Origin: Candidatus Methanomethylophilaceae archaeon
GTDB taxonomy: Archaea; Thermoplasmatota; Thermoplasmata; Methanomassiliicoccales; Methanomethylophilaceae
NCBI GenBank assembly: GCA_017540825.1
Contig: JAFYAH010000035.1
Coordinates: 1 to 40,607, forward strand
Direction: 5' to 3'
Length of the DNA stretch: 40,607 nucleotides
Below the pieces are notes generated by a model. The model was not told the DNA's origin, searched no databases, and saw nothing but the letters and a program-made list of their open reading frames with translations. Position 1 is the stretch's first letter; each line of letters begins with the position of its first letter. The position numbers and the translations under genes were made by a program. Positions 2,112 to 35,515 of this stretch are shown here, one piece after another.

Positions 2112-2134
2112 CATCAGGTTGGTTCGACCTGATG
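2112..2134 (+). promoter_or_regulatory. Inverted repeat in the HTH gene leader
   Basis: CATCAGGT (2112-2119) and ACCTGATG (2127-2134) are perfect reverse complements with a seven-base spacer. The repeat lies between the predicted transcription start and the likely start codon at 2150. It overlaps an upstream ATG (2132) whose third codon is CGA. It could be an operator for the HTH protein encoded immediately downstream, or an mRNA hairpin. Confidence 0.5.
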
Positions 2135-2149
2135 CGCCGAACCAGTGAT

Positions 2150-2440
2150 ATGATGAGCAAAGACACCGGAGCCATTAGTTGCGCATCCCTGCTCGAGGAG
2201 AAGCACCTCATTTCCATTCTGCTCTATCTGGAGCGCGAAGGGCTGACAAGGAAGATAGACCTGTACAACAACGTCTCCTTCAACCCGCGCATGCCTGAGA
2301 AGATAGATCGCCTGGAATCCGCAGGGCTGCTCGAGCAGAAGACGGACGGGTACTCGCGCTCCACCCTCCTGGAGCTGACGGAGAAAGGAAGGAAGATCGC
2401 CCAGATGCTCGAGGACATAGACCGCGCCCTGAAGGCTCGA
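2150..2440 (+). CDS. Winged-helix transcriptional regulator, ends at CGA
   Basis: This is a small (96-residue) winged helix-turn-helix protein resembling MarR/PadR-like archaeal regulators. Helices around EEKHLISILLYLEREG precede a recognition region (RMPEKIDRLESAGLLEQK) and a wing ending in LTEKGRKIAQMLEDID. ATG 2150 (or 2153) is chosen because the earlier ATG 2132 has CGA as its third codon. The frame meets CGA at 2438-2440 after KALKA; under the standard code it runs nine more codons (GPQPPERTF) to TAA at 2470. It probably shares a transcript with the ABC ATPase 55 bases downstream, and the leader repeat may be its own operator. Confidence 0.75.
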
Positions 2441-3292: not shown

Positions 3293-3757
3293 ATGTCGTT
3301 CGTATGCCCCGAATGCGGTATGTTGATGGATGATGATGCGGATTTCTGCTACAGGTGCGGATGCAAGAGGTCGAAAGCCAAGACCTTTGTAGACGACAGC
3401 ATCAGACAGACCGCGTGCCCCCGCTGCGGAGCGGAGATCCACGAAGGGGAGATGTTCTGCAGGAGCTGCGGGTCGCCTCTGGACGTGTCCTCTCCGCTGA
3501 AGGCGAGCACGAACAGCACCGTGGCCATGTTCCTGGCGCTCATACCCGGATTCTTCTCCATCTACGGCCTGGGCCATCTGGTGCTCAAGGAATGGGTCAG
3601 GGGCGCGATGTTCCTGGCGATGACCGCGCTATACTGGTACATGCGCTCCTCGACCGGCAACACCCTGCTCCTCGTGGTCCTGAGCATAGGACTGTTCATC
3701 TACCAGGCTCTGGACCTGGCCAGGATAATAATGTTCAGGAGCCTGAGAAATGGCTGA
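3293..3757 (+). CDS. Double zinc-ribbon membrane protein
   Basis: This is a 154-residue protein with two N-terminal zinc ribbons. The first has CPEC and CYRCGC, the second has CPRC and CRSC. About 80 residues with two or three predicted membrane helices follow. The function is unknown; zinc-ribbon plus membrane-helix proteins are abundant in this lineage. A TATA-like ATATTAAA at 3235-3242 and GGAGG seven bases before the ATG support the start. Its TGA overlaps the RFC-L start by eight bases, suggesting co-transcription with the clamp-loader gene. Confidence 0.8.
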   Translation: MSFVCPECGMLMDDDADFCYRCGCKRSKAKTFVDDSIRQTACPRCGAEIHEGEMFCRSCGSPLDVSSPLKASTNSTVAMFLALIPGFFSIYGLGHLVLKEWVRGAMFLAMTALYWYMRSSTGNTLLLVVLSIGLFIYQALDLARIIMFRSLRNG

Positions 3758-5294
3758 CTGGACGGAGAAGTACCGCCCCCGCACCCTGGACGGCGTGCTG
3801 GGGAACCCGTCCGCCGTAAACTCGATGAGGGCATGGGCCAAGCAGTGGGAGTCGGGGAAGCCGCAGTACCGCGCGATGGTTCTCATGGGATCCCCCGGGA
3901 TAGGGAAGACCACCTCCGCGCTGGCCCTGGCCAACGAGATGGGATGGGACGTGGTCGAGATGAACGCGTCCGACCAGCGCACCAGCAGGGAGATAGAGCA
4001 GATCGCGGTCCGCGGGTCCAGGTTCAACACCTTCGGGGTGGACGGCAGCTACATGTCCGCCTCCGAAGGGAGGAAGAAGCTGATAATCCTCGACGAGGCG
4101 GACAACTTCTTCGGGAAGGCGGACAAGGGGGCGATACCGGCGGTCAACACGCTCGTCAAGACCTCCCTGCAGCCTGTGATACTGATAGTCAACGACTTCT
4201 ACGAGCTCAAGAGGAAGAGCGACGCGGTGAAGGACCTCACCCTCCAGGTCACATTCAAGAAGACCACCGCCTCGACGATGTCGAAGGCCCTCTACAGGAT
4301 AGCGGCGGCCGAGGGGGTGGAGGTGGAGCCTGCTGCGATGGAGATCATAGTCGACAACGCGTCCGGGGACATGAGAGCAGCAGTTAGGAACCTGCAGTCC
4401 CTGGCTGAAGGCGCGGACACGGTGACGCTGGAGATGGCCCAGGGCCTTTCCAGGCGCGACTCCCGCAAGGACATGTACGACCTGATGACGGCGATGTTCA
4501 GGAGGCCGGACCCCATGGCGGCCCGCGCCATCCTGCGCGAGGTGGACGCCGAGCCCAGCGATGTAGAGATATGGATAGACGAGAACCTACCGTACGAGTA
4601 TTCGGACCGCGGAGACCTTGTGCGCGGGTACGAGGCACTCTGCCGCGCAGACCTGTACCTGGCCAGGGTCAGCAGGCGCCAGTACTACGGGTTCTGGTCG
4701 TACGCCAACGACATGATGTCCATGGGCGTCACCAACGCCCGCATGACCGACCGCTTCAACAAGGAGAGGATACGCTTCCCGATGTACCTGTCCAGGATGT
4801 CCCGCTCCAAGGCCATGAGGGCACTGAAGAAGGCCGTGGTCTACAAGATCGCCGTGGCGTGCCACACGTCCACCAAGCGCGCGTCAATGGACATGCTGCC
4901 TCACATCAAGGCAATAGCCGCCAACGACCCCTCCATCAGAATCCATCTCGTCGAGACCATGGGCCTGGAGCCGGCCGAGATGGCGTTCATACTGGATGCG
5001 AAAGCCGATTCGGCAATGATAAAGAAGCTCTTCAAGGAGGCGGAGGAGAGGGCGGAGGCCCGCAGGAGGGCGATGACGGCCCCCAGGCCCGCCGCTCCGA
5101 AGCCGGTACCCGAACCGGCCGTGACGCCCGCCCCTGCCAGGATCGAGAAGGCTACTGAGCCGCCCGCGAAAAAGGCCGAGCCCAAGAAGGTCCGCACGTC
5201 CAGCGAGGAGCGCGTCGAAGAGCCCAAGGCGAAGAAGGCCAAGGCTGAGCAGCACAAGCCTTCGGCAGGGCAGAAGTCCCTGTTCGACTTCCGA
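3750..5294 (+). CDS. rfcL: Replication factor C large subunit, ends at CGA
   Basis: This is the large subunit of the archaeal clamp loader, which loads the PCNA sliding clamp on DNA with RFC small subunits. It has 514 residues: the N-terminal motif WTEKYRPRTLDGVLG, Walker A GSPGIGKTT, Walker B LIILDEADN, the AAA+ lid, then a Lys/Ala/Pro-rich linker and a terminal PCNA-interacting box QKSLFDF. In archaeal RFC-L this box is normally the extreme C-terminus. The very next codon is CGA (5292-5294), the only in-frame CGA in the gene. Under the standard code the protein gains 12 residues that overlap the Taw1 start, ending at TGA 5333. Taw1 follows eight bases after CGA. Confidence 0.94.
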
Positions 5295-5302
5295 GGTGTA
5301 AC

Positions 5303-6241
5303 ATGGAACAAGCTTACAAGGACCTGCTGGTGAAGCAGCAGTACCGCTTATACAAGGACCATTCCGCCGTGAAGCTATGCCACTGGATGAAGGAGAGCAT
5401 GGTGCACGAGAGGCACTGCTACAAGCAGGACTTCTACGGGATCAGCAGCCACCGCTGCCTCCAGATGACCCCGGCCATCAACGAGTGCAGCCACATGTGC
5501 ACGTTCTGCTGGCGGATCCAGGAGCACGACTTCGAGGTGAAGGACTGGGCCGAGCCCAAGGAGATGCTGGACGCCCTCATAGAGCATCAGAGGAGCCTCA
5601 TCTGGGGCTTCAAAGGGGACCCGAGGTGCGACCCGAAGATGTTCGAGGAGGCCCGCAACCCCGACCAGGTGGCGATATCGCTGGCCGGTGAGCCCATCAC
5701 CTACCCTTACCTGTCGGAGTTCCTGGAGGAGTGCCACAGGCGCAGGATGACCACGTTCATGGTCACCAACGGGACGTATCCCGACCGCCTGGAGGCCCTG
5801 GACGTCCTCCCGATGCAGCTCTACGTGACCGTGGCCGCCCCTAACAAAGAGATCTACAAGGACGTCTGCAGGCCGAAGATAAGCGACGGGTGGGAGAGGC
5901 TGATGAGGACGCTGGAGATCCTGCCGTCGCTGGACACCCGCACCGTGATAAGGCACACCCTGGTCAAAGGGGTCAACATGGGATGGACGGAGGACTACGG
6001 CCGCCTTGACCGCATCGCCGACCCGGACCTCGTAGAGCCGAAAGGCTACGTGTTCGTGGGAGGATCGAGGAAGAGGCTGTCCATGGCGTGCATGCCGTCC
6101 TTCGAGGAGGTCAAGCAGTTCTCTGCGGAGCTGGGGCCCCACATAGGCATGGAGGTCATCAAGGAGAGGGCGGACAGCCGCGTGGTGCTCCTCGGGCATC
6201 CCGGACAGGAGACGGACATCAGGAAGATCTATGGGATTTGA
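5303..6241 (+). CDS. taw1: tRNA 4-demethylwyosine synthase (Taw1/TYW1)
   Basis: This radical SAM enzyme makes the tricyclic core of wyosine on tRNA-Phe position 37, from N1-methylguanosine and pyruvate. The protein has 312 residues. The radical SAM cluster motif is visible as CSHMCTFCW, with a further conserved Cys upstream (RCLQMTPAINEC) in the region that binds the second iron-sulfur cluster. LAGEPITYP and VTNGTYPD are characteristic of the family. GAGGTG lies before the ATG, supporting this start. It is probably co-transcribed with rfcL. Confidence 0.93.
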   Translation: MEQAYKDLLVKQQYRLYKDHSAVKLCHWMKESMVHERHCYKQDFYGISSHRCLQMTPAINECSHMCTFCWRIQEHDFEVKDWAEPKEMLDALIEHQRSLIWGFKGDPRCDPKMFEEARNPDQVAISLAGEPITYPYLSEFLEECHRRRMTTFMVTNGTYPDRLEALDVLPMQLYVTVAAPNKEIYKDVCRPKISDGWERLMRTLEILPSLDTRTVIRHTLVKGVNMGWTEDYGRLDRIADPDLVEPKGYVFVGGSRKRLSMACMPSFEEVKQFSAELGPHIGMEVIKERADSRVVLLGHPGQETDIRKIYGI

Positions 6242-10163: not shown

Positions 10164-11531
10164 TCGTATGCTGTACACCCCCAGGAACGACAGGAGGCCG
10201 ACGGCCAGTATCATGGCCAGGAACACCGGGCACACCCATTTCACCAGGATCCCGTAGTACGGCTTGAGCCTGAACTCCCCGGTGGCCTCGACCTCCTCGA
10301 GGATGAAGGAGGGCTTGACCACATATCCCACGAACAGGCAGGTCATTATCGCGGCTACCGGCATCATGATGGAGTTGCTAAGGAAGTCGAACAGGTCCAG
10401 GAACGCCATGCCGGCCAACTCGAACCCGCTGAGGGGGCCGTAACCGTAGCAGGACAGGATCCCGAGGCCCAGTATGACCGCGGCCGTGATCAGGGTTGCC
10501 CTCCTGCGGGACGCCTTGAAGCGGTCCATGAACACCGACGCCACCGTCTCCGCCAGGGACACAGCGGACGTGAGCGCCGCGAACAGCACCAGCAGGAAGA
10601 ACAGAATCGCGACGAAATAACCGCCCGGCATCACGTCGAACACCTTCGGGAGGGTCACGAACATGAGCGACGGGCCGCTAGATATCCCCGCTTCGCTGAA
10701 GGCGTACACGGCAGGGACTATCATCAGGCCGGCCAGCATCGCCACGGACGTGTCGATGAGGCTTATCCTGCGTGCGGACTTGGGGATGTCCACGTCCTTC
10801 TTCATGTACGACCCGTACGTGATCATGATGCCCATCGCGAGGGACATCGAATAGAACAGCTGGCCCATCGCCCCGAGGAAGGTCGACGCAGAGAGCTTCG
10901 AGAAGTCGGGGACGAGGTACCTCGCCGCGCCGTCCATGGAGCCCGGGAGAGTGAGAACGTATACCGTTATCAGGAGGATCAGCCCGAGGAGGACCGGCAT
11001 CAGGACCTTGCTCATCTTCTCGATGCCCTTGTCTACGCCTACATAGACCAGAACCACGGTGGCCAGAGCGAAGAGGAGGAACCACGTCAGAGGGTCCCCG
11101 AGCACGCCGCCGAGCTCGCACCCGACGAACTGGGGGAAGAAGCCCGTCTCCGATATCGTGTCCAAGCCTCCGCCGGCGGACTCGAACAGGTACTTGGCGA
11201 CCCATCCGCCTATGACGCAGTAGTACGGGACGATTATTATCGGTATCAGCGCGGCGAACCAGCCTATCGCCCTGTGCTTGCGGGAGAGGTCCTCGAAAGC
11301 CGAGACGCACGACTTCCTGGTGCGCCTCCCCAGAGCCAGCTCGGTCATCAGAAGGGTGAACCCGAACACCACGGCAAGCAGTATGTAGACCAGCAGGAAT
11401 ATCCCGCCTCCGTACTGCTCCGCCAGGTACGGGAAGCGCCAGAGGTTCCCCAGCCCGACCGCGGACCCGGCGGCGGCGAGGACGAACCCTATCTTCGACG
11501 AGAAGGAGTCCCTGCCGGATTCGCTGTGCAT
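10164..11531 (-). CDS. SNF-family sodium-dependent transporter, ends at CGA
   Basis: This neurotransmitter:sodium symporter (LeuT family) member has 455 residues and about 12 membrane helices. The helix-1 signature GLGNLWRFPYL lies near residue 22 and the family segment GGWVAKY follows later. It probably imports an amino acid with sodium. The last helix ends LLSFLGVYSI and the next codon is CGA (10164-10166), the only in-frame CGA in the gene. Under the standard code the frame continues through the whole SPL gene to 9651 in a meaningless phase (626 residues). The start fits a leaderless mRNA from the TATA box at 11551-11560. Confidence 0.9.
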
Positions 11532-11550
11532 GCCGCATGTAATGGCTCTG

Positions 11551-11560
11551 TTTATGAAAT
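11551..11560 (-). promoter_or_regulatory. TATA box of the SNF-type transporter
   Basis: ATTTCATAAA on the minus strand is centred 25 bases before ATG 11531, the usual spacing for a leaderless archaeal transcript. It lies just downstream of the CGA that ends NreA, inside what the standard code would treat as NreA coding sequence. Confidence 0.5.
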
Positions 11561-11577
11561 AACCATCGACTGCGAGG

Positions 11578-12858
11578 TCGGTAGAACTCGTCGATGCGGC
11601 GCTGGACCTTCCATTCCCTTATCAGCTCGGACCTGTTCCTCCATTCGTCGTGCTTTATGTCCATGTACGCGTCGATGTGCGGCCACAGCCCTTCCAGGGT
11701 GTCGGACTCCACCGGGTCGTAGAGGAGCGCTGTCCTGCAGTTCTCGCGTATGTTCCAGACACCGAGAGGGATGTTGTAGCCGGGATGGATCTCCCTCATC
11801 ACTATGACGCCGGCGGACCTCCGCTCCTTCTCCAGCCTCTCCGCGATGGCCAGCCTGGCCGCGTAGTAGCTGCCCCCCATGGCCGCGTACGTCGTCCTGC
11901 CGTCGTACCCCTCGCTGTCCACCTCGAAGTCGATATGGGAGTCGGAGAGGTTCCAGCTGGACTGGGGATACCACGCCTCCATCATCTCGAAGCGCCAGGA
12001 GCAGGGCATCATGACTATCGCCCACCTGTTGTCCAGCTGGTCCCAGAAGTAGACGCGGTACTTGTCGATGGTCTCCAGGTGCTTCACCCTGCCGACCAGC
12101 TCCTTGGATATGATGTCGTCGACGGCGGTGATGCTCCATCTCGTCGGGACGAACCGCCTCCGCTTGCCGACGCCCATCGTCCCTACCGAGAACGCCTTCT
12201 CGATCTCGCTGACGCGCGTCCCGGAGCGGTACGACGCCACCACCGCGTCCGTGGCCTTCATGTCCACGTCGTAGAAGCTGCGCTCTAGACTGCGCTCGAA
12301 CCTGCCGTTGCCTACGCTGAGGGTCTCCATGCGCCCCGAAGGGCCGAAAGGCTGCACCGCGTCGTCCAGGACCAGCCTCCCCCTGGGCTTCGACGCCAGG
12401 TTGGCCTCGACCTCCACCGGCTTCTCGGTGAGGGCCAGCTCCTGGACGTTGTCCACTATCCTGCCTGACTTCCTGAAGTCCGTGGCGTCTATCCTGTACT
12501 TGCCGCGGACCAGCCTGAACCTCATGTCCACGATCGCGGACTGCCGGCGGCCGACCCATCTCTCGGGAAGGTCCAGGAGGGACGTGTCACCGTACTCCAT
12601 CGGAAGCAGAGGCCCTATGTCCACCTTCGGATAGCCGTACCTCCCCACGAACACGGACGGAGGGCTGCACCCGGCGATGTCCTTAGAGTCGATCTGAGGG
12701 AGCGTCCTGCATTCTGAATAGAACTTGGTCATCAGAGGGCAGCGGCTCTTCCCGCACAGGCTGCGCGAGCCTTTGCAGATGACGCACAGGCCGTTCTTCA
12801 CCACGGAGTCGTCCATGCTCCGCGCTTCCTCGAACATCGCGCCATAGTCAGTCGACAT
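11578..12858 (-). CDS. nreA: NreA-like DNA repair protein, ends at CGA
   Basis: This archaeal Nre-family protein has 426 residues and is linked to DNA-damage repair together with PCNA. An N-terminal zinc-binding region has CVICKGSRSLCGKSRC. A conserved middle follows, and the C-terminus is a PCNA-interacting box QRRIDEFY. The next codon is CGA (11578-11580), the only in-frame CGA; otherwise the frame runs to 10678 through the transporter gene. ATG 12858 (MSTDYGAMFEEA) is chosen because GAGG lies six bases upstream; ATG 12900 in frame is an alternative. The TATA box at 12958-12971 gives a leader of about 80 bases. Confidence 0.86.
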
Positions 12859-13130: not shown

Positions 13131-14699
13131 TCATGTGGATGGCGCCTGGAGGGAGGGCTCGCCGCCAGCTGCCGAGAACTCCGGAGCCAGCCGGAGACGG
13201 CGCTTGAAGAGCTTCCGGAAGTCGTCCTTGATCCTGTCCATGCGCCAGACCTCCATCGAAGGGTCCTCGGAGCTGGAGAACCTCAGGACCACCTCGTCGC
13301 CGGCCGCCTCGAGGAAGATGCCCTCCATGGAGGAGGTGCGGTGCCTGTCCAGTATGTCGGCCATCCTGAGGAACATGGCGCACATCCTCACATCCTGTGA
13401 CTCTTTCGGAGGGACGCCTTTCAGGCTCCGGTCGTTGGGCCCTGGGAACTTCTTGTGATGGAACCTGGCCATGAGCCCCATGTACCTCAGCTCGGTGACG
13501 TCGAAGCCCACCATGTCCGAGTTCTCTATCATCATCTGCGACAGCAGGTTGTGGTCGCTGTAGTTCACCACCTCCCCGATGTCGTGGAGCGTGGCGGCGC
13601 AGGACAGAAGGCTGCGCATGCCGTCGGACATGGAGTGCATGCCGAGCGCCTTGGACCCGTCGAACAGGAGCATGGAGTACCTCTCCACGGCCGCCGCGTG
13701 CCTGGCGTCGTACCCGCACCTGCATGCCAACGACATCACCGACGCGCGCCGGACGTCCAGCCTGGCATGCCCGCGGGAGAGGAGGAAATCGGTCTGCATC
13801 CCCTCCCTGAGCCCGTTCTGGGAGATCTCGATCCTGTCTATCCCGAACAGGGACATCAGCTCGTCGGCTATCGCGCCGCCCCCTATTATTATGTCCGCGC
13901 GCGCCTTGGCGAGTCCGCGCACGTCTTCCCTTCCCGACATGTCCAGGCTGCACAGGTGCTCCATCAGGGACCTGAGCTCCTCCGACGTCATGTAGGACGC
14001 GTCTCCGTCCCCCCTGCGGGCGGCGCACATGGATGCGAGGGCCATCATGGTCCCCGACGAGCCGTATGCCCTGGCGAACCCGGCCTCGCGCACCATCCCG
14101 GTGGCGTGGTAGGAGCTGGTATCCACCCGGCGCAGCAGGACGCCGTAGTCCTCGGGAGAGACGGGCTTGGAGAAGTCTATGCCGTCGCCGTACAGGAACC
14201 TGACCGCGCCGACGCTGAGGCTGTCCATGAACAGGTTCTCGCCGCCTTCGGAAACGACGACCTCGGTGCTCCCGCCGCCGATGTCGATGACTATGGACCT
14301 CTCCCGGGGTCCGTCCGGCCCGAAGACCCCCAGCGCTATGAGCCTGGCCTCCTCCGTCCCGGGGATCACGCGGACGTCTACGTGCTGCGAGACCGCCCTG
14401 ACGAGGTCGTGCCCGTCCGGGGCCTCCCTGGCGGCGCAGGTTGCCATCGCCAGGACCTCCTGAGCGCCCATGCTGCGGGCCGTCCTGGCGAACCTCGAGA
14501 CGATGATCGCCGCCTTCCGTATGGTATCCCTCCCGATGCGGCCATCGGCGTACAGGCCGCGGCCCAGGCGGAGCATCTCCTTGTCCTGGAACACCGTGTC
14601 GCCCGGCACGGCGCCGTAGCACCGCACCACGGACAGGTGTATGGAGTTGGTCCCGATGTCGATGAACCCGACCGTCTCGCTCTCCGTCGACCGGTCCAT
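13131..14699 (-). CDS. ppx: Exopolyphosphatase, Ppx/GppA family
   Basis: This enzyme hydrolyses terminal phosphates from polyphosphate (or guanosine pentaphosphate). It has 522 residues. The N-terminal ASKHA fold shows FIDIGTNSIHLSV as phosphate-1 motif and VIDIGGGSTEVV as phosphate-2 motif. The C-terminal part is HD-like (CAATLHDIGEVV). The ATG overlaps the end of ppk by 23 bases, so the two are translated from one mRNA together with hisD. It ends in TGA and contains no CGA. Confidence 0.92.
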   Translation of the reverse strand: MDRSTESETVGFIDIGTNSIHLSVVRCYGAVPGDTVFQDKEMLRLGRGLYADGRIGRDTIRKAAIIVSRFARTARSMGAQEVLAMATCAAREAPDGHDLVRAVSQHVDVRVIPGTEEARLIALGVFGPDGPRERSIVIDIGGGSTEVVVSEGGENLFMDSLSVGAVRFLYGDGIDFSKPVSPEDYGVLLRRVDTSSYHATGMVREAGFARAYGSSGTMMALASMCAARRGDGDASYMTSEELRSLMEHLCSLDMSGREDVRGLAKARADIIIGGGAIADELMSLFGIDRIEISQNGLREGMQTDFLLSRGHARLDVRRASVMSLACRCGYDARHAAAVERYSMLLFDGSKALGMHSMSDGMRSLLSCAATLHDIGEVVNYSDHNLLSQMMIENSDMVGFDVTELRYMGLMARFHHKKFPGPNDRSLKGVPPKESQDVRMCAMFLRMADILDRHRTSSMEGIFLEAAGDEVVLRFSSSEDPSMEVWRMDRIKDDFRKLFKRRLRLAPEFSAAGGEPSLQAPST

Positions 14700-22091: not shown

Positions 22092-23129
22092 ATGGTCATC
22101 AAATCGCTCTACATTAGCAGGCTGTTCAACCAATACAGTTACACGTTGAACCTGTGCGACGGCCTGACGTTCGTCCACTCCCCCAACGGATACGGCAAGA
22201 GCACGCTGATGCACATGGTATATGCCGCCATGAAAGGCGATGTCAAGTATCTTTCAGAGATACCGTTCGAGAGGCTCGACGTCGGATTCAAGGACGAATC
22301 GAACCTCATCATAGAGAACGAGTCCGGAGACCTCCTCATCCAGATGCAGAAGAACGAGCTCGAGACCCCTCTGACGCCCGACGAGATGGCCGACATCTGC
22401 GAGGTCGTCTACATCTCCCCCGAGAGGCTCATGGTGAAAAAGCGCGACGGGCACATCAGCCCCGCCCTGGAGACGTACGCGCAGGAGCTCTACGAGCGCA
22501 TAAGGTACTCCAAGGAGCACTCGGAGCTGACGCCTTACGCCGGCCAGAGGAAGGAGATGTCCGACAGCGACCTGGAGTTCTGGTGCAAGGACCTCAAAGC
22601 CAAGCTTGACTTCATCAAGGATGCGGGATTCGAGCCGGAAATACCTGCCGGATACAGATTCCCTCCCTCCAGGTACGAGCTCTCCAGCTACAGGAAGGAC
22701 TACGAGGACCTCACTTACTCCATATCCGAGTATGTGAAGGACAACTACATCCTCGCCGAGTCAATCATAATATTCAAGGACATAATCAACGGGTTCTTCA
22801 TAGGCAAGAAGATGGAGATATCGGAGAACGGGAAGATCGTGATAAACCTCAACGGGGGCGGAGCCCTCCAGCTCAGCAAGCTCTCCTCGGGCGAGAAGCA
22901 GATAATGATCATCTTCTACAACATGCTGTTCCACGCCGACCCCGGCTCGGTGATAATTCTGGACGAGCCCGAGATCTCCCTCCACGTCACCTGGCAGCAA
23001 CGGCTCGGAAAGCTGTTCGACGACATCTGCAGGGTGAGGGGCATGCAGATCGTCGTGGCGACACATTCCCCACAGGTGATACATGACATGTGGGACAATG
23101 CTAGGGAGTTGAAGCCGTACAATGCGTGA
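22092..23129 (+). CDS. AAA family ATPase, AriA-like half of a PARIS-type pair
   Basis: This is an SMC/ABC-like ATPase of 345 residues: Walker A HSPNGYGKST at about residue 30, an inserted coiled or helical middle, signature LSSGEKQIMI, Walker B VIILDEPEISLH, and the switch segment VATHSPQVIH. It overlaps a DUF4435 gene by eight bases. This ATPase plus DUF4435 arrangement is that of the PARIS antiphage system (AriA and AriB). In PARIS, the ATPase complex senses a phage anti-restriction protein and releases the DUF4435 effector. Assignment is by architecture and neighbour, so a related ATPase-nuclease pair is possible. Confidence 0.78.
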   Translation: MVIKSLYISRLFNQYSYTLNLCDGLTFVHSPNGYGKSTLMHMVYAAMKGDVKYLSEIPFERLDVGFKDESNLIIENESGDLLIQMQKNELETPLTPDEMADICEVVYISPERLMVKKRDGHISPALETYAQELYERIRYSKEHSELTPYAGQRKEMSDSDLEFWCKDLKAKLDFIKDAGFEPEIPAGYRFPPSRYELSSYRKDYEDLTYSISEYVKDNYILAESIIIFKDIINGFFIGKKMEISENGKIVINLNGGGALQLSKLSSGEKQIMIIFYNMLFHADPGSVIILDEPEISLHVTWQQRLGKLFDDICRVRGMQIVVATHSPQVIHDMWDNARELKPYNA

Positions 23130-23976
23130 ACATCTCGGATTCAGCGACATCTGCAACGAGGTGATGATGAGCCGCTCCATCTACGGCGGCGCGTTCGTCC
23201 TCGTCGAAGGGGTCACCGACGACCGCGTGTACAGGAAGTTCCTGTCGGAGGACTCGATCATCATCGAGTGCCACTCCAAAGATGCCGTCAAGAGATGCAT
23301 AAAGGAGCTGGCGCAGCACCGCGGCCTGAAGGAGGTCATAGGGATCGTGGACGCCGACCTGGACCTCCTAGACCGCAGGTTCCCCGATCCGCCCCTGTTC
23401 TTCACGGACTGCAGGGACATGGAGATGATGTGCATCCAGAGCAACGCCTTCGAGGACGTCCTGGACGAGTACGGCGACAGGGAGAAGATCCAGAAGTTCG
23501 AGGACAGGTACGGGTCCGTCAAGGACTCGCTGGTGGAGGCGAGCTACCCCGTCGGGCTGCTGATGCGCGTCTCGAGGGACAACGGGATGGGCCTCAACTT
23601 CGGCAACCTCGACGTCTCCAGGTTCGTCAATCCCAAGACCCTGACCATCGACATGGCGGCGATGATCGACGTGGTCATAATGAACTCGGCTCCCTCGGGG
23701 ATATCCAAGAAGAGGGTGCTTCGCATGCTGGAGGACGAGATAAAGAACCTTGAGGACTCCTGGGACGCCGCGAGAGGCCACGACACCGTGTCCATCCTCC
23801 TGCTGGCTCTCCAGAAAGGGCTCGGGTCGTTCAACTCCAGGTCCCTGAACGAGAACGCGCTCGCGGGATCGCTCAGGCTGGCATTCTCCGACTCGGACTT
23901 CGCCAAGACCCGCCTGTACAAGGACTCCTCCGAATGGGCCAACAAGATGGACCTGAACCTGTGGAGGCTCAGACGA
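23122..23976 (+). CDS. DUF4435 (TOPRIM/OLD-like) protein, AriB-like, ends at CGA
   Basis: This is a DUF4435 protein of 284 residues with a TOPRIM-like acidic core. FVLVEGVTDDRVYRKFL carries the first conserved Glu, IGIVDADLD the Asp-x-Asp, and FTDCRDMEMM the third acidic cluster. In PARIS the AriB effector is a TOPRIM nuclease. The ATG overlaps the ATPase stop, so the two are translated together. CGA (23974-23976) follows LNLWRLR and is the only in-frame CGA; the standard code adds 15 residues to TAG 24024, reaching into the promoter of the next gene. Confidence 0.8.
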
Positions 23977-32906: not shown

Positions 32907-33569
32907 TCGGTATACGAGCTCGACCCCAGGGGGGTTCATGCCCTCTATTATCCTTCTCGCCCACCGGAGCTTCCTGGCCTTCGTGCTCTGGTCGGAGCCT
33001 TCCTTGGGCGTCGGATGCTCGTAGTCGAATCCCGGCAGCAGGATCCTGCGGCAGCCGAAGTGCCTCGCGAAGCAGACCGCGCGGTCGCCGTCGGTGAACC
33101 CTCCGAAGTTGTACACTATGTCGCGCGGGGCCGACTGGGTGGTGAGGGCCACCGGGCCCTTCAGAAGCCCCGCGTACCTGCTGACGAGGTCGGCGTTGTC
33201 CCCGTGGGCGTGTACGAGGGTGAGGGCGCCGCGGGAGCTGGCCTCCATCTGCGGGCCGATGTCCCCGTCGAGATCGGTCACGACCACGTCCGGAAGGATG
33301 CCCATGGCCAGGAGGCGGCCGACAGAGGACCCGGACGCGATGAGGGCGCCTTCCGTCCCGAGCCTATTGATGTCCTCCTCCAGCCCCGGCGAGTTACCGA
33401 AAACGGTGCAGGACTCCCTTACGCGGGACCCGGCCTCGTCGTCGGAAACCAGGTCGTCGTTGAGGGTCACCGAGAGCAGGACCCTCACGCAGGCCTCGTC
33501 GTCGTAGCGGGAGTAGCCCATGTCGGAGAGGATCTCCTCGTACACAGGCTCCCACTCGGTAAACCGCAT
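32907..33569 (-). CDS. mptE: Archaeal 6-hydroxymethylpterin pyrophosphokinase MptE, ends at CGA
   Basis: This enzyme activates 6-hydroxymethyl-7,8-dihydropterin with ATP in tetrahydromethanopterin (or folate-like) synthesis. It is a DUF115 protein of 220 residues. VTDLDGD, VHAHGDN and NFGGFTDGDRA are the conserved active-site segments. CGA (32907-32909) follows GVELVY. The standard frame continues seven codons (CHPFIE tail) to TGA 32886, across the promoter of the next gene. The start overlaps the end of the DUF373 gene by 14 bases. Confidence 0.88.
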
Positions 33570-34734
33570 CGTACTCCTCCCCCAGGTCGTCGTCCTTGGA
33601 CTTCCTGCCCTTGCGTCTTATTATACTGCGCTTCTTCGACTGCTTGTCGCGCTTCACGCGCCCCACGAGGAAGTTGACGACCAATGTGAGGGCTATCCCT
33701 GCGGCGACCTCGAGGATCCCTATGTCCAGCATGTGCCAGTAGCCGATGTAGGTCATCAGCACGTCCAGAGAGCCGGTCGCGACCAGCGCGTATGCGGCCA
33801 GCGTCAGCCCGGATATGGCGTAGCTCGTCCTGAAGACCCTCTCGTTCTGGTAGTCCGCGATGATGTTCCCCGCTATGTAGAGCATCAGGGAGATCACCAT
33901 CGGCCATATCAGCGACTCCACGAAGAAGATGACCTTCGGTATCTCGTTCTGGAAGTACATGTTCTGGATCTCCAGGTAGTCGTAGACGGCGGATATGACG
34001 AGGAAGGCCACGGCCACGGCCAGGAACAGGAGCTTGGTGGACTCCTTGAACATGTTGTTGTAGACCCTGGCCTTCAGCTTCTTCAGGCGCTTCCCGACGC
34101 TGTATCCATACAAGATGAGGACCAGGCCGGCGGCCAGCACGGCAAGCCCGCTGGACATCCTGGCGATGCCCGAGATGTCCGGGTCGGATATGTACATCAC
34201 CACGTTGGGGAGCACGAAGAACAGCGAGACCAGCACCAGGAACACGCCTATCGGGGCTACGAACCTGCGCCTCTTGTCAGGGTCGGCCAGCATCTTGGTG
34301 ATTATGTAGAGGTTGCCCTCCAGGCCGGGCGCCTGCTTCACGTACACCCTCTTGGTGGTGACTATCTTCACCCCGCTCAGCAAAGGATAGATGTACTCGT
34401 CCTCGGCCCCGTCGCCGACCAGTATGAGGCCTTCCGGCTTCACGCGCTTCTTCACGGCCTCGAACTCGTCGGAGATGGCCATGTCTGACTTGATCCCGAC
34501 CTGGCTGGCCCCGCATATCAGGGCGACCTCCGCGTCCGTCCCCTCCTTGCGAAGGTCGAGGCAGACCTTTATCGCCGAGAACAGAGCGTTCGTGTCTGAA
34601 TCCTCGGGGTCTGCCATCCCGAGTGCGGTGGCGGCCTCTCTGCAGCGTTCTACGCCTATAAGAGGTGTGGAGACGCCCGCCTTTGTGCCGAAGTCGTCGT
34701 CCCTGTCCACCGCGAGAACCAGAAGCTTCCCCAT
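33556..34734 (-). CDS. DUF373 family membrane protein, ends at CGA
   Basis: This is an archaeal DUF373 protein of 392 residues and unknown function. The soluble N-terminus begins MGKLLVLAVDRDDDFG, has a conserved ALICGASQVGIKSD and LVGDGAEDEYIYPLL, and is followed by several membrane helices from about residue 160. The basic C-terminal tail ends in GEEYDAVY. The next codon is CGA (33556-33558), the only in-frame CGA. The standard frame runs to 33394 inside mptE. Changing this CGA to TGA would be silent in mptE (ACC to ACT, Thr). Confidence 0.88.
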
Positions 34735-34873: not shown

Positions 34874-35515
34874 ATGCGGATAAGGTGGCATGGTCATGCG
34901 TGCTTCGAGTACGGGAACTCCGAGCACACTGTCGTCGTGGACCCTCATGACGGCCGTTCTCTTGGAATCAAGCCCCCTGCCGCTTCGGCGGACATAGTCC
35001 TCATGACCCACGAGCACTACGACCACAGGGCATCATGGATCATCGGCGGCAAACATGAGGACGTCATGGCCAGGGAAGGCCCCTTCGAAGTGAAAGGGCT
35101 GCCTGTGGAGGGCTTCCGCACGTTCCACGACTCCACCGGCGGCAGCGAGAGGGGGCTGAACACCATGTACATGTTCGAGATGGACGGGATCAGGATCTGC
35201 CACTGCGGAGACCTGGGCTGCATCCCCGACGAGCAGACTATGTCCAGGATCAAAGGGGTGGACGTCCTGATGGTGCCTACGGGCGAGGTCTTCACCATGG
35301 TGATGTCCGACGTCCGCAGGTTCATCGAGCAGGTGAACCCAACCATCGTGGTCCCCATGCACTACAGGGTGGGGGGGCTGACGCTCCCGATAAGCACCAT
35401 CGACGAGTTCCTCGAGATAATCCCCGAAGAATACGTGGACTACATCGGGAACGAGATAGACGTGACGCCGGACGACCTCACCGAGATGAAGGAATGCTGG
35501 ATATTCGAGCGCCGA
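34874..35515 (+). CDS. MBL-fold metal-dependent hydrolase, ends at CGA
   Basis: This is a metallo-beta-lactamase fold protein of 213 residues, related to the UPF0173 group. The N-terminal HACFEYG, the metal site THEHYDH, the later CHCGDLG, and the C-terminal PMHYR are in place. The substrate is unknown. CGA (35513-35515) follows CWIFER. The standard code adds seven residues, mostly Arg and Pro, to TGA 35536. It is convergent with the ribosomal cluster, 61 bases away. Confidence 0.86.

Follow-up and report, generated by a model that had tools for sequence, protein, structure and literature searches.

Comparative evidence that the arginine codon CGA is used as a stop codon in a methanogenic archaeon related to strain ISO4-G1

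Introduction

Reassignments of sense codons to stop codons have been described only in organelles as of 2025, namely UCA/UCG in Sphaeropleales mitochondria (PMC6821328) and UUA/UCA in peDinoflagellate plastids (PMC12574857), and the latter report considers plastids the first case outside mitochondria. In these organelles, a sense codon vanishes from the coding sequence and appears at the stop positions of homologues, and a changed release factor is the proposed cause. The rare arginine codons CGA, CGG, and AGG have changed meaning after depletion in bacteria, as revealed using Codetta (PMC8629427), although in these cases the new meaning is another amino acid. This large survey of prokaryotic codes found no archaeal sense codon with an unexpected amino acid, and it assigns codons only to amino acids, so a new stop codon would appear as uninferred. 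Codons with two meanings depending on place have been reported in the codes of ciliates and Blastocrithidia, in which standard stops gained sense (PMC4967479, PMC12153298). In addition, release factor genes may carry an in-frame copy of a codon read by the factor itself, as in the autoregulation of bacterial prfB (RF2), which appears to use a +1 frameshift at UGA, and in the Mimivirus class-I release factor with internal stop codons (PMC3521657). Finally, eRF1 mediates premature termination at rare codons in Neurospora, including CGA, for which tRNA-Arg(UCG) is scarce (PMC6755126).

In the present study, we describe an archaeon in which CGA ends roughly one gene in five. Compared with the organellar reassignments, the codon likewise vanishes from the inside of genes and sits at the stop positions of homologues, but the genome is an archaeal chromosome, the factor is of the aRF1/eRF1 type and not the bacterial RF1/RF2 type, the first base is C and not U, the cognate tRNA is retained, and standard stops are still the majority. 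Compared with the bacterial arginine codons, CGA becomes a terminator; compared with the ciliate and Blastocrithidia codes, a sense codon gained stop meaning; compared with prfB, the frame is kept and the codon is the sense codon CGA; and compared with Neurospora, where the outcome is a loss of product, CGA is used as the normal end of genes. No report of CGA as a stop codon in archaea was found among open-access papers, although subscription papers and preprints were not covered. This would be the first sense-to-stop change known outside organelles.

Results

CGA directly follows the PCNA box of RFC-L

The stretch of DNA analyzed herein (the window) comprises 40,607 nucleotides and lies in a 2.37 Mb assembly, designated G000; other genomes are given G numbers. 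One genome of the same genus (G007) has a chromosome of 1,593,503 bases, the published size of methanogenic archaeon ISO4-G1 from sheep rumen (PMC4824259), so the genus is that of ISO4-G1 in the Methanomethylophilaceae. The initial annotation noted that the PCNA-binding box at the end of RFC-L is followed by the only in-frame CGA of the gene and implied that CGA ends the protein. The observation is confirmed and, by comparison with relatives, this interpretation is supported, with the refinement that CGA is not exclusively a stop. The features of the locus are as follows.

3750..5294 (+), RFC-L gene (replication factor C large subunit) with AAA/RFC Pfam domains, ending at CGA
5271..5291 (+), terminal PCNA-interacting box QKSLFDF, conserved as the last residues in genus and family
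5292..5294 (+), CGA read as the stop codon of RFC-L
5295..5333 (+), 12-codon tail plus TGA that only the standard code would translate, not conserved and overlapping taw1
5303..6241 (+), taw1 (tRNA-Phe wyosine biosynthesis, radical SAM; PF08608, PF04055)

The frame from 3750 to 5333 contains 528 codons and exactly one CGA, codon 515, whereas the other arginine codons of the gene are CGC (21), AGG (21), AGA (2), CGG (0), and CGT (0). Read by the standard code, the tail would be RGVTWNKLTRTCW, which is 13 residues counting the CGA arginine and 12 beyond it, ending at TGA 5331-5333. Codon usage is coding up to the CGA and not after it. In the 25 genus members whose RFC-L end could be read, including this one, the codon after the box is TGA in 19 and CGA in 6 (G000, G001, G004, G006, G011, and G028) and never another. 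The tails after CGA have nothing in common; one is followed at once by TGA, and another runs open for many codons, and no homologue has a conserved tail. On a tree of RFC-L plus Taw1, the CGA state needs six changes, at least four of which are forced by well-supported branches. In one further genome, G030, the scan stopped at an in-frame TAG near the RFC-L C-terminus, where the near-identical G019 has a glutamate codon, which might reflect pyrrolysine or a mutation.

CGA is depleted inside genes and enriched at gene ends

To examine whether this usage extends through the genome, about 704 kb of G000 was analyzed, together with samples of G018 (the nearest relative), G014 (same genus, complete), and G033 (another genus of the family, complete). 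As a gene call starting from the longest ORFs counted many CGAs from spurious frames, coding segments were called by codon usage with CGA scored neutral. CGA with coding sequence on both sides versus coding sequence before and non-coding sequence after was observed 8/99 times in G000, 2/26 in G018, 4/5 in G014, and 61/2 in G033, whereas the control codons in G000 gave 133/13 (CAA), 393/35 (CGG), and 682/48 (AGA). Most of the 8 inside cases in G000 look like doubtful frames or gene junctions. Several inside CGAs proved to be such junctions; for example, at one G018 locus (L247, within 10814-11875), CGA is followed within a few codons by the in-frame ATG of thymidylate kinase, and the standard code fuses the two genes. 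By the looser count, approximate stop use in G000 is TGA 367, CGA 128, TAA 33, and TAG 28 (about 23% CGA), and by the stricter count, 96 CGA against 348 standard stops (about 22%). CGA is used in about 9% of cases in G018 and about 3-4% in G014. The nucleotide after the terminal CGA is not fixed.

Homologues were subsequently compared with a frame filter, without which the test was too noisy. At CGA positions of G000, homologues have TGA or TAA at exactly the same codon in 25 genes and within three codons in about 31, whereas for other codons a homologue stop within three codons occurs in about 1-5% of cases. Only CGA, and not CGG, CAA, or CAG, sits at the stops of homologues. Inside alignments to G033 proteins, conserved arginines in G000 are encoded by AGG (413), CGC (199), AGA (34), CGG (20), CGT (10), and CGA (0), i.e. 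CGA is used 0 times in 676; the corresponding values are 0 of 472 in G018 and 1 of 398 in G014. In G033, CGA is 7 of 702, so this codon was already rare in the family. CGA hardly occurs inside aligned regions (1, 0, and 2 cases in three genus genomes), and a change of CGA to another amino acid is thus not supported.

Eight genes in the window, including RFC-L, appear to end in CGA. The other seven are as follows.

2132..2440 (+), small protein weakly like a winged-helix domain (PF22166 below its curated cut-off), ending at CGA 2438-2440; G018 homologue has TGA at the same codon
10164..11531 (-), SNF-family symporter (PF00209), ending at CGA 10164-10166; TGA at the same codon in G014 and one codon off in G018
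11578..12858 (-), Nre DNA-repair protein (start uncertain), ending at CGA 11578-11580 after a PIP-like end QRRIDEFY; PF04895 is complete one residue before the CGA, and G014 has TGA at the same codon
14677..16749 (-), polyphosphate kinase (start uncertain), ending at CGA 14677-14679; four PP_kinase domains end upstream, and the coding score drops after the CGA
23122..23976 (+), DUF4435 protein (PF14491), ending at CGA 23974-23976; TGA at the same codon in G033 and one codon off in G018
33556..34734 (-), DUF373 membrane protein (PF04123), ending at CGA 33556-33558; the coding score drops after the CGA
34874..35515 (+), metallo-beta-lactamase-fold protein (PF13483), ending at CGA 35513-35515; G018 has TGA at the same codon

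Six of the eight genes have a homologue stop at exactly the codon, whereas polyphosphate kinase and the DUF373 protein rest on codon usage.

A conserved CGA in the aRF1 gene

Each genome, as a rule, has one aRF1 and one Pelota-like hit. In 18 of 19 genus members with readable sequence, the aRF1 gene has exactly one in-frame CGA, always at Arg78 (SIAA-R-LKT), 17 residues after NIKS, and the same frame continues across this codon. Other genera use AGA, AGG, CGC, CGG, or CGT there, and one has lysine. This CGA is invariant although CGA is otherwise almost absent; the preceding codon is GCT or TCT in 18 of 18, although these are 3-13% of Ala/Ser codons, and the next is CTC or CTA. The exception, G028, has CGC at this position, and its aRF1 gene ends in CGA. 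Other genera also carry a single shared in-frame CGA elsewhere in aRF1, at Arg25 (G033 and G034) or near Arg326 (G031 and G035), possibly reflecting parallel regulation. Residues 53, 63, 76, and 91 near NIKS are genus-typical and each nearly absent elsewhere. The NIKS motif is unchanged in most members and is NIRS only in G001 and G006, two species whose RFC-L ends in CGA; no substitution was tied to the reading of C at the first base.

tRNA-Arg(UCG) and the internal CGA of L18e

A tRNA-Arg(UCG) gene is present in G000 (C44:19985-20057) and in many other genus members. In the 14 genes read across the anticodon stem, including that of G000, positions 31 and 39 are A-A or C-A, leaving four pairs, whereas several outgroups have G39 (position 31 not read). 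Short-stem tRNAs are known to change decoding (PMC13092985), but no effect is shown here. No tRNA-Arg(UCG) gene was found in the ISO4-G1 subclade or in G028, where an intron or assembly gap could hide it, and loss is not claimed.

Ribosomal protein L18e has CGA at one arginine (ATC TGG CGA GAC) in 18 of 22 genus members, G000 included, and in 8 of 8 relatives outside the genus. The surrounding stretch, ATCTGGCGAGA, is conserved in DNA across the order, including families where CGA is ordinary, and perhaps represents an overlapping element. Four genus members changed this codon to CGT, among them the CGA users G001 and G028. So CGA must be readable as arginine in at least one essential gene, it cannot always terminate, and its meaning depends on context or competition. 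Moreover, no CGA was found in about 74 sampled gene ends of the ISO4-G1 subclade, which keeps the aRF1 CGA, against 19 of 197 in the rest of the genus, although the same rough scan gave 5 false calls among 107 ends outside the genus, where CGA is ordinary.

Discussion

Thus, comparison of sequences, in the absence of protein or RNA data, strongly suggests that CGA is a working stop codon, interchangeable with TGA, in this archaeon and its close relatives in one subset of the ISO4-G1 genus. As the cognate tRNA gene is retained and CGA remains inside the aRF1 and L18e genes, the claim is dual meaning and not complete reassignment. Most likely, the single class-I release factor aRF1 recognizes CGA besides UGA, UAA, and UAG, although this step is inferred; the termination of eRF1 at rare CGA in Neurospora (PMC6755126) makes it plausible. 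Herein, we propose a feedback like that of bacterial prfB, but without the frameshift, to describe the conserved CGA in the aRF1 gene. When aRF1 is abundant, it would terminate its own synthesis at Arg78, and when aRF1 is scarce, tRNA-Arg(UCG) would read through and the full protein would be made. This link is inferred from position and conservation and is not shown by experiment. The combined reading, in which a broadened aRF1 sets its own level through competition with a tRNA-Arg(UCG) that has an unpaired 31-39 position, is probable but less certain than the stop function of CGA.

The likely route is codon capture, in which, first, CGA became very rare in the family; second, aRF1 gained the ability to read CGA; and third, TGA-to-CGA changes at gene ends became tolerated. 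G028, in which both internal CGAs are gone (CGC in aRF1 and CGT in L18e), aRF1 and RFC-L end in CGA, and no tRNA-Arg(UCG) was detected, may have finished the change. With CGA ending about 3% to 23% of genes in different members of one genus, the change is caught part-way, and the order of codon depletion, factor change, and tRNA loss becomes directly testable. These results also bear on how eRF1/aRF1 reads the first base of stop codons, and gene ends are likely mis-annotated in many rumen methanogen genomes.

Other explanations were considered and disfavoured. CGA might be unassigned, with stalled ribosomes rescued by Pelota/ABCE1 or an unknown factor rather than by aRF1. Rare CGA stalls ribosomes in yeast and Neurospora (PMC6755126), and tRNA-Arg(UCG) was not found in some members by pattern searches. 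However, this tRNA gene is present in G000 and many other members, a stall-type ending would hardly be interchangeable with TGA in about a fifth of genes, and the invariant CGA in the aRF1 gene points to aRF1; therefore, we regard this reading as unlikely.

Ordinary stop loss, in which the ribosome reads on as arginine plus a short neutral tail, requires only a single transition from TGA to CGA, and a tRNA-Arg(UCG) gene exists. Nevertheless, the tails are not conserved and have non-coding codon usage, the median distance to the next stop is 19 codons, and a quarter exceed 94. Stop loss also does not explain that about 100 genes are affected while CGA vanished from inside genes, the recurrence at one codon, or the involvement of only CGA, and this explanation is very doubtful. 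C-to-U editing of mRNA, which may create stop codons in plant organelles, is equally improbable. CGA differs from UGA by only C for U, and in G006 the usual taw1 ATG reads ACG, although an in-frame GTG three codons upstream may be the start. However, CAA and CAG show no excess at stop places, and out-of-frame CGA is not read as edited, as NCG-A codons keep their literal residue as often as controls (edited-type residues 18 of 258 against 58 of 902 for control contexts). Editing would also not explain why the one genus-specific invariant CGA lies in the aRF1 gene. Lastly, although most of the genomes are metagenome assemblies, a sequencing or assembly artefact is highly improbable, as the same CGA appears in several public MAGs from different projects (Tb.RUG.20, RGIG6046, and S8M_St_41) and CGA is depleted inside genes at the same time.
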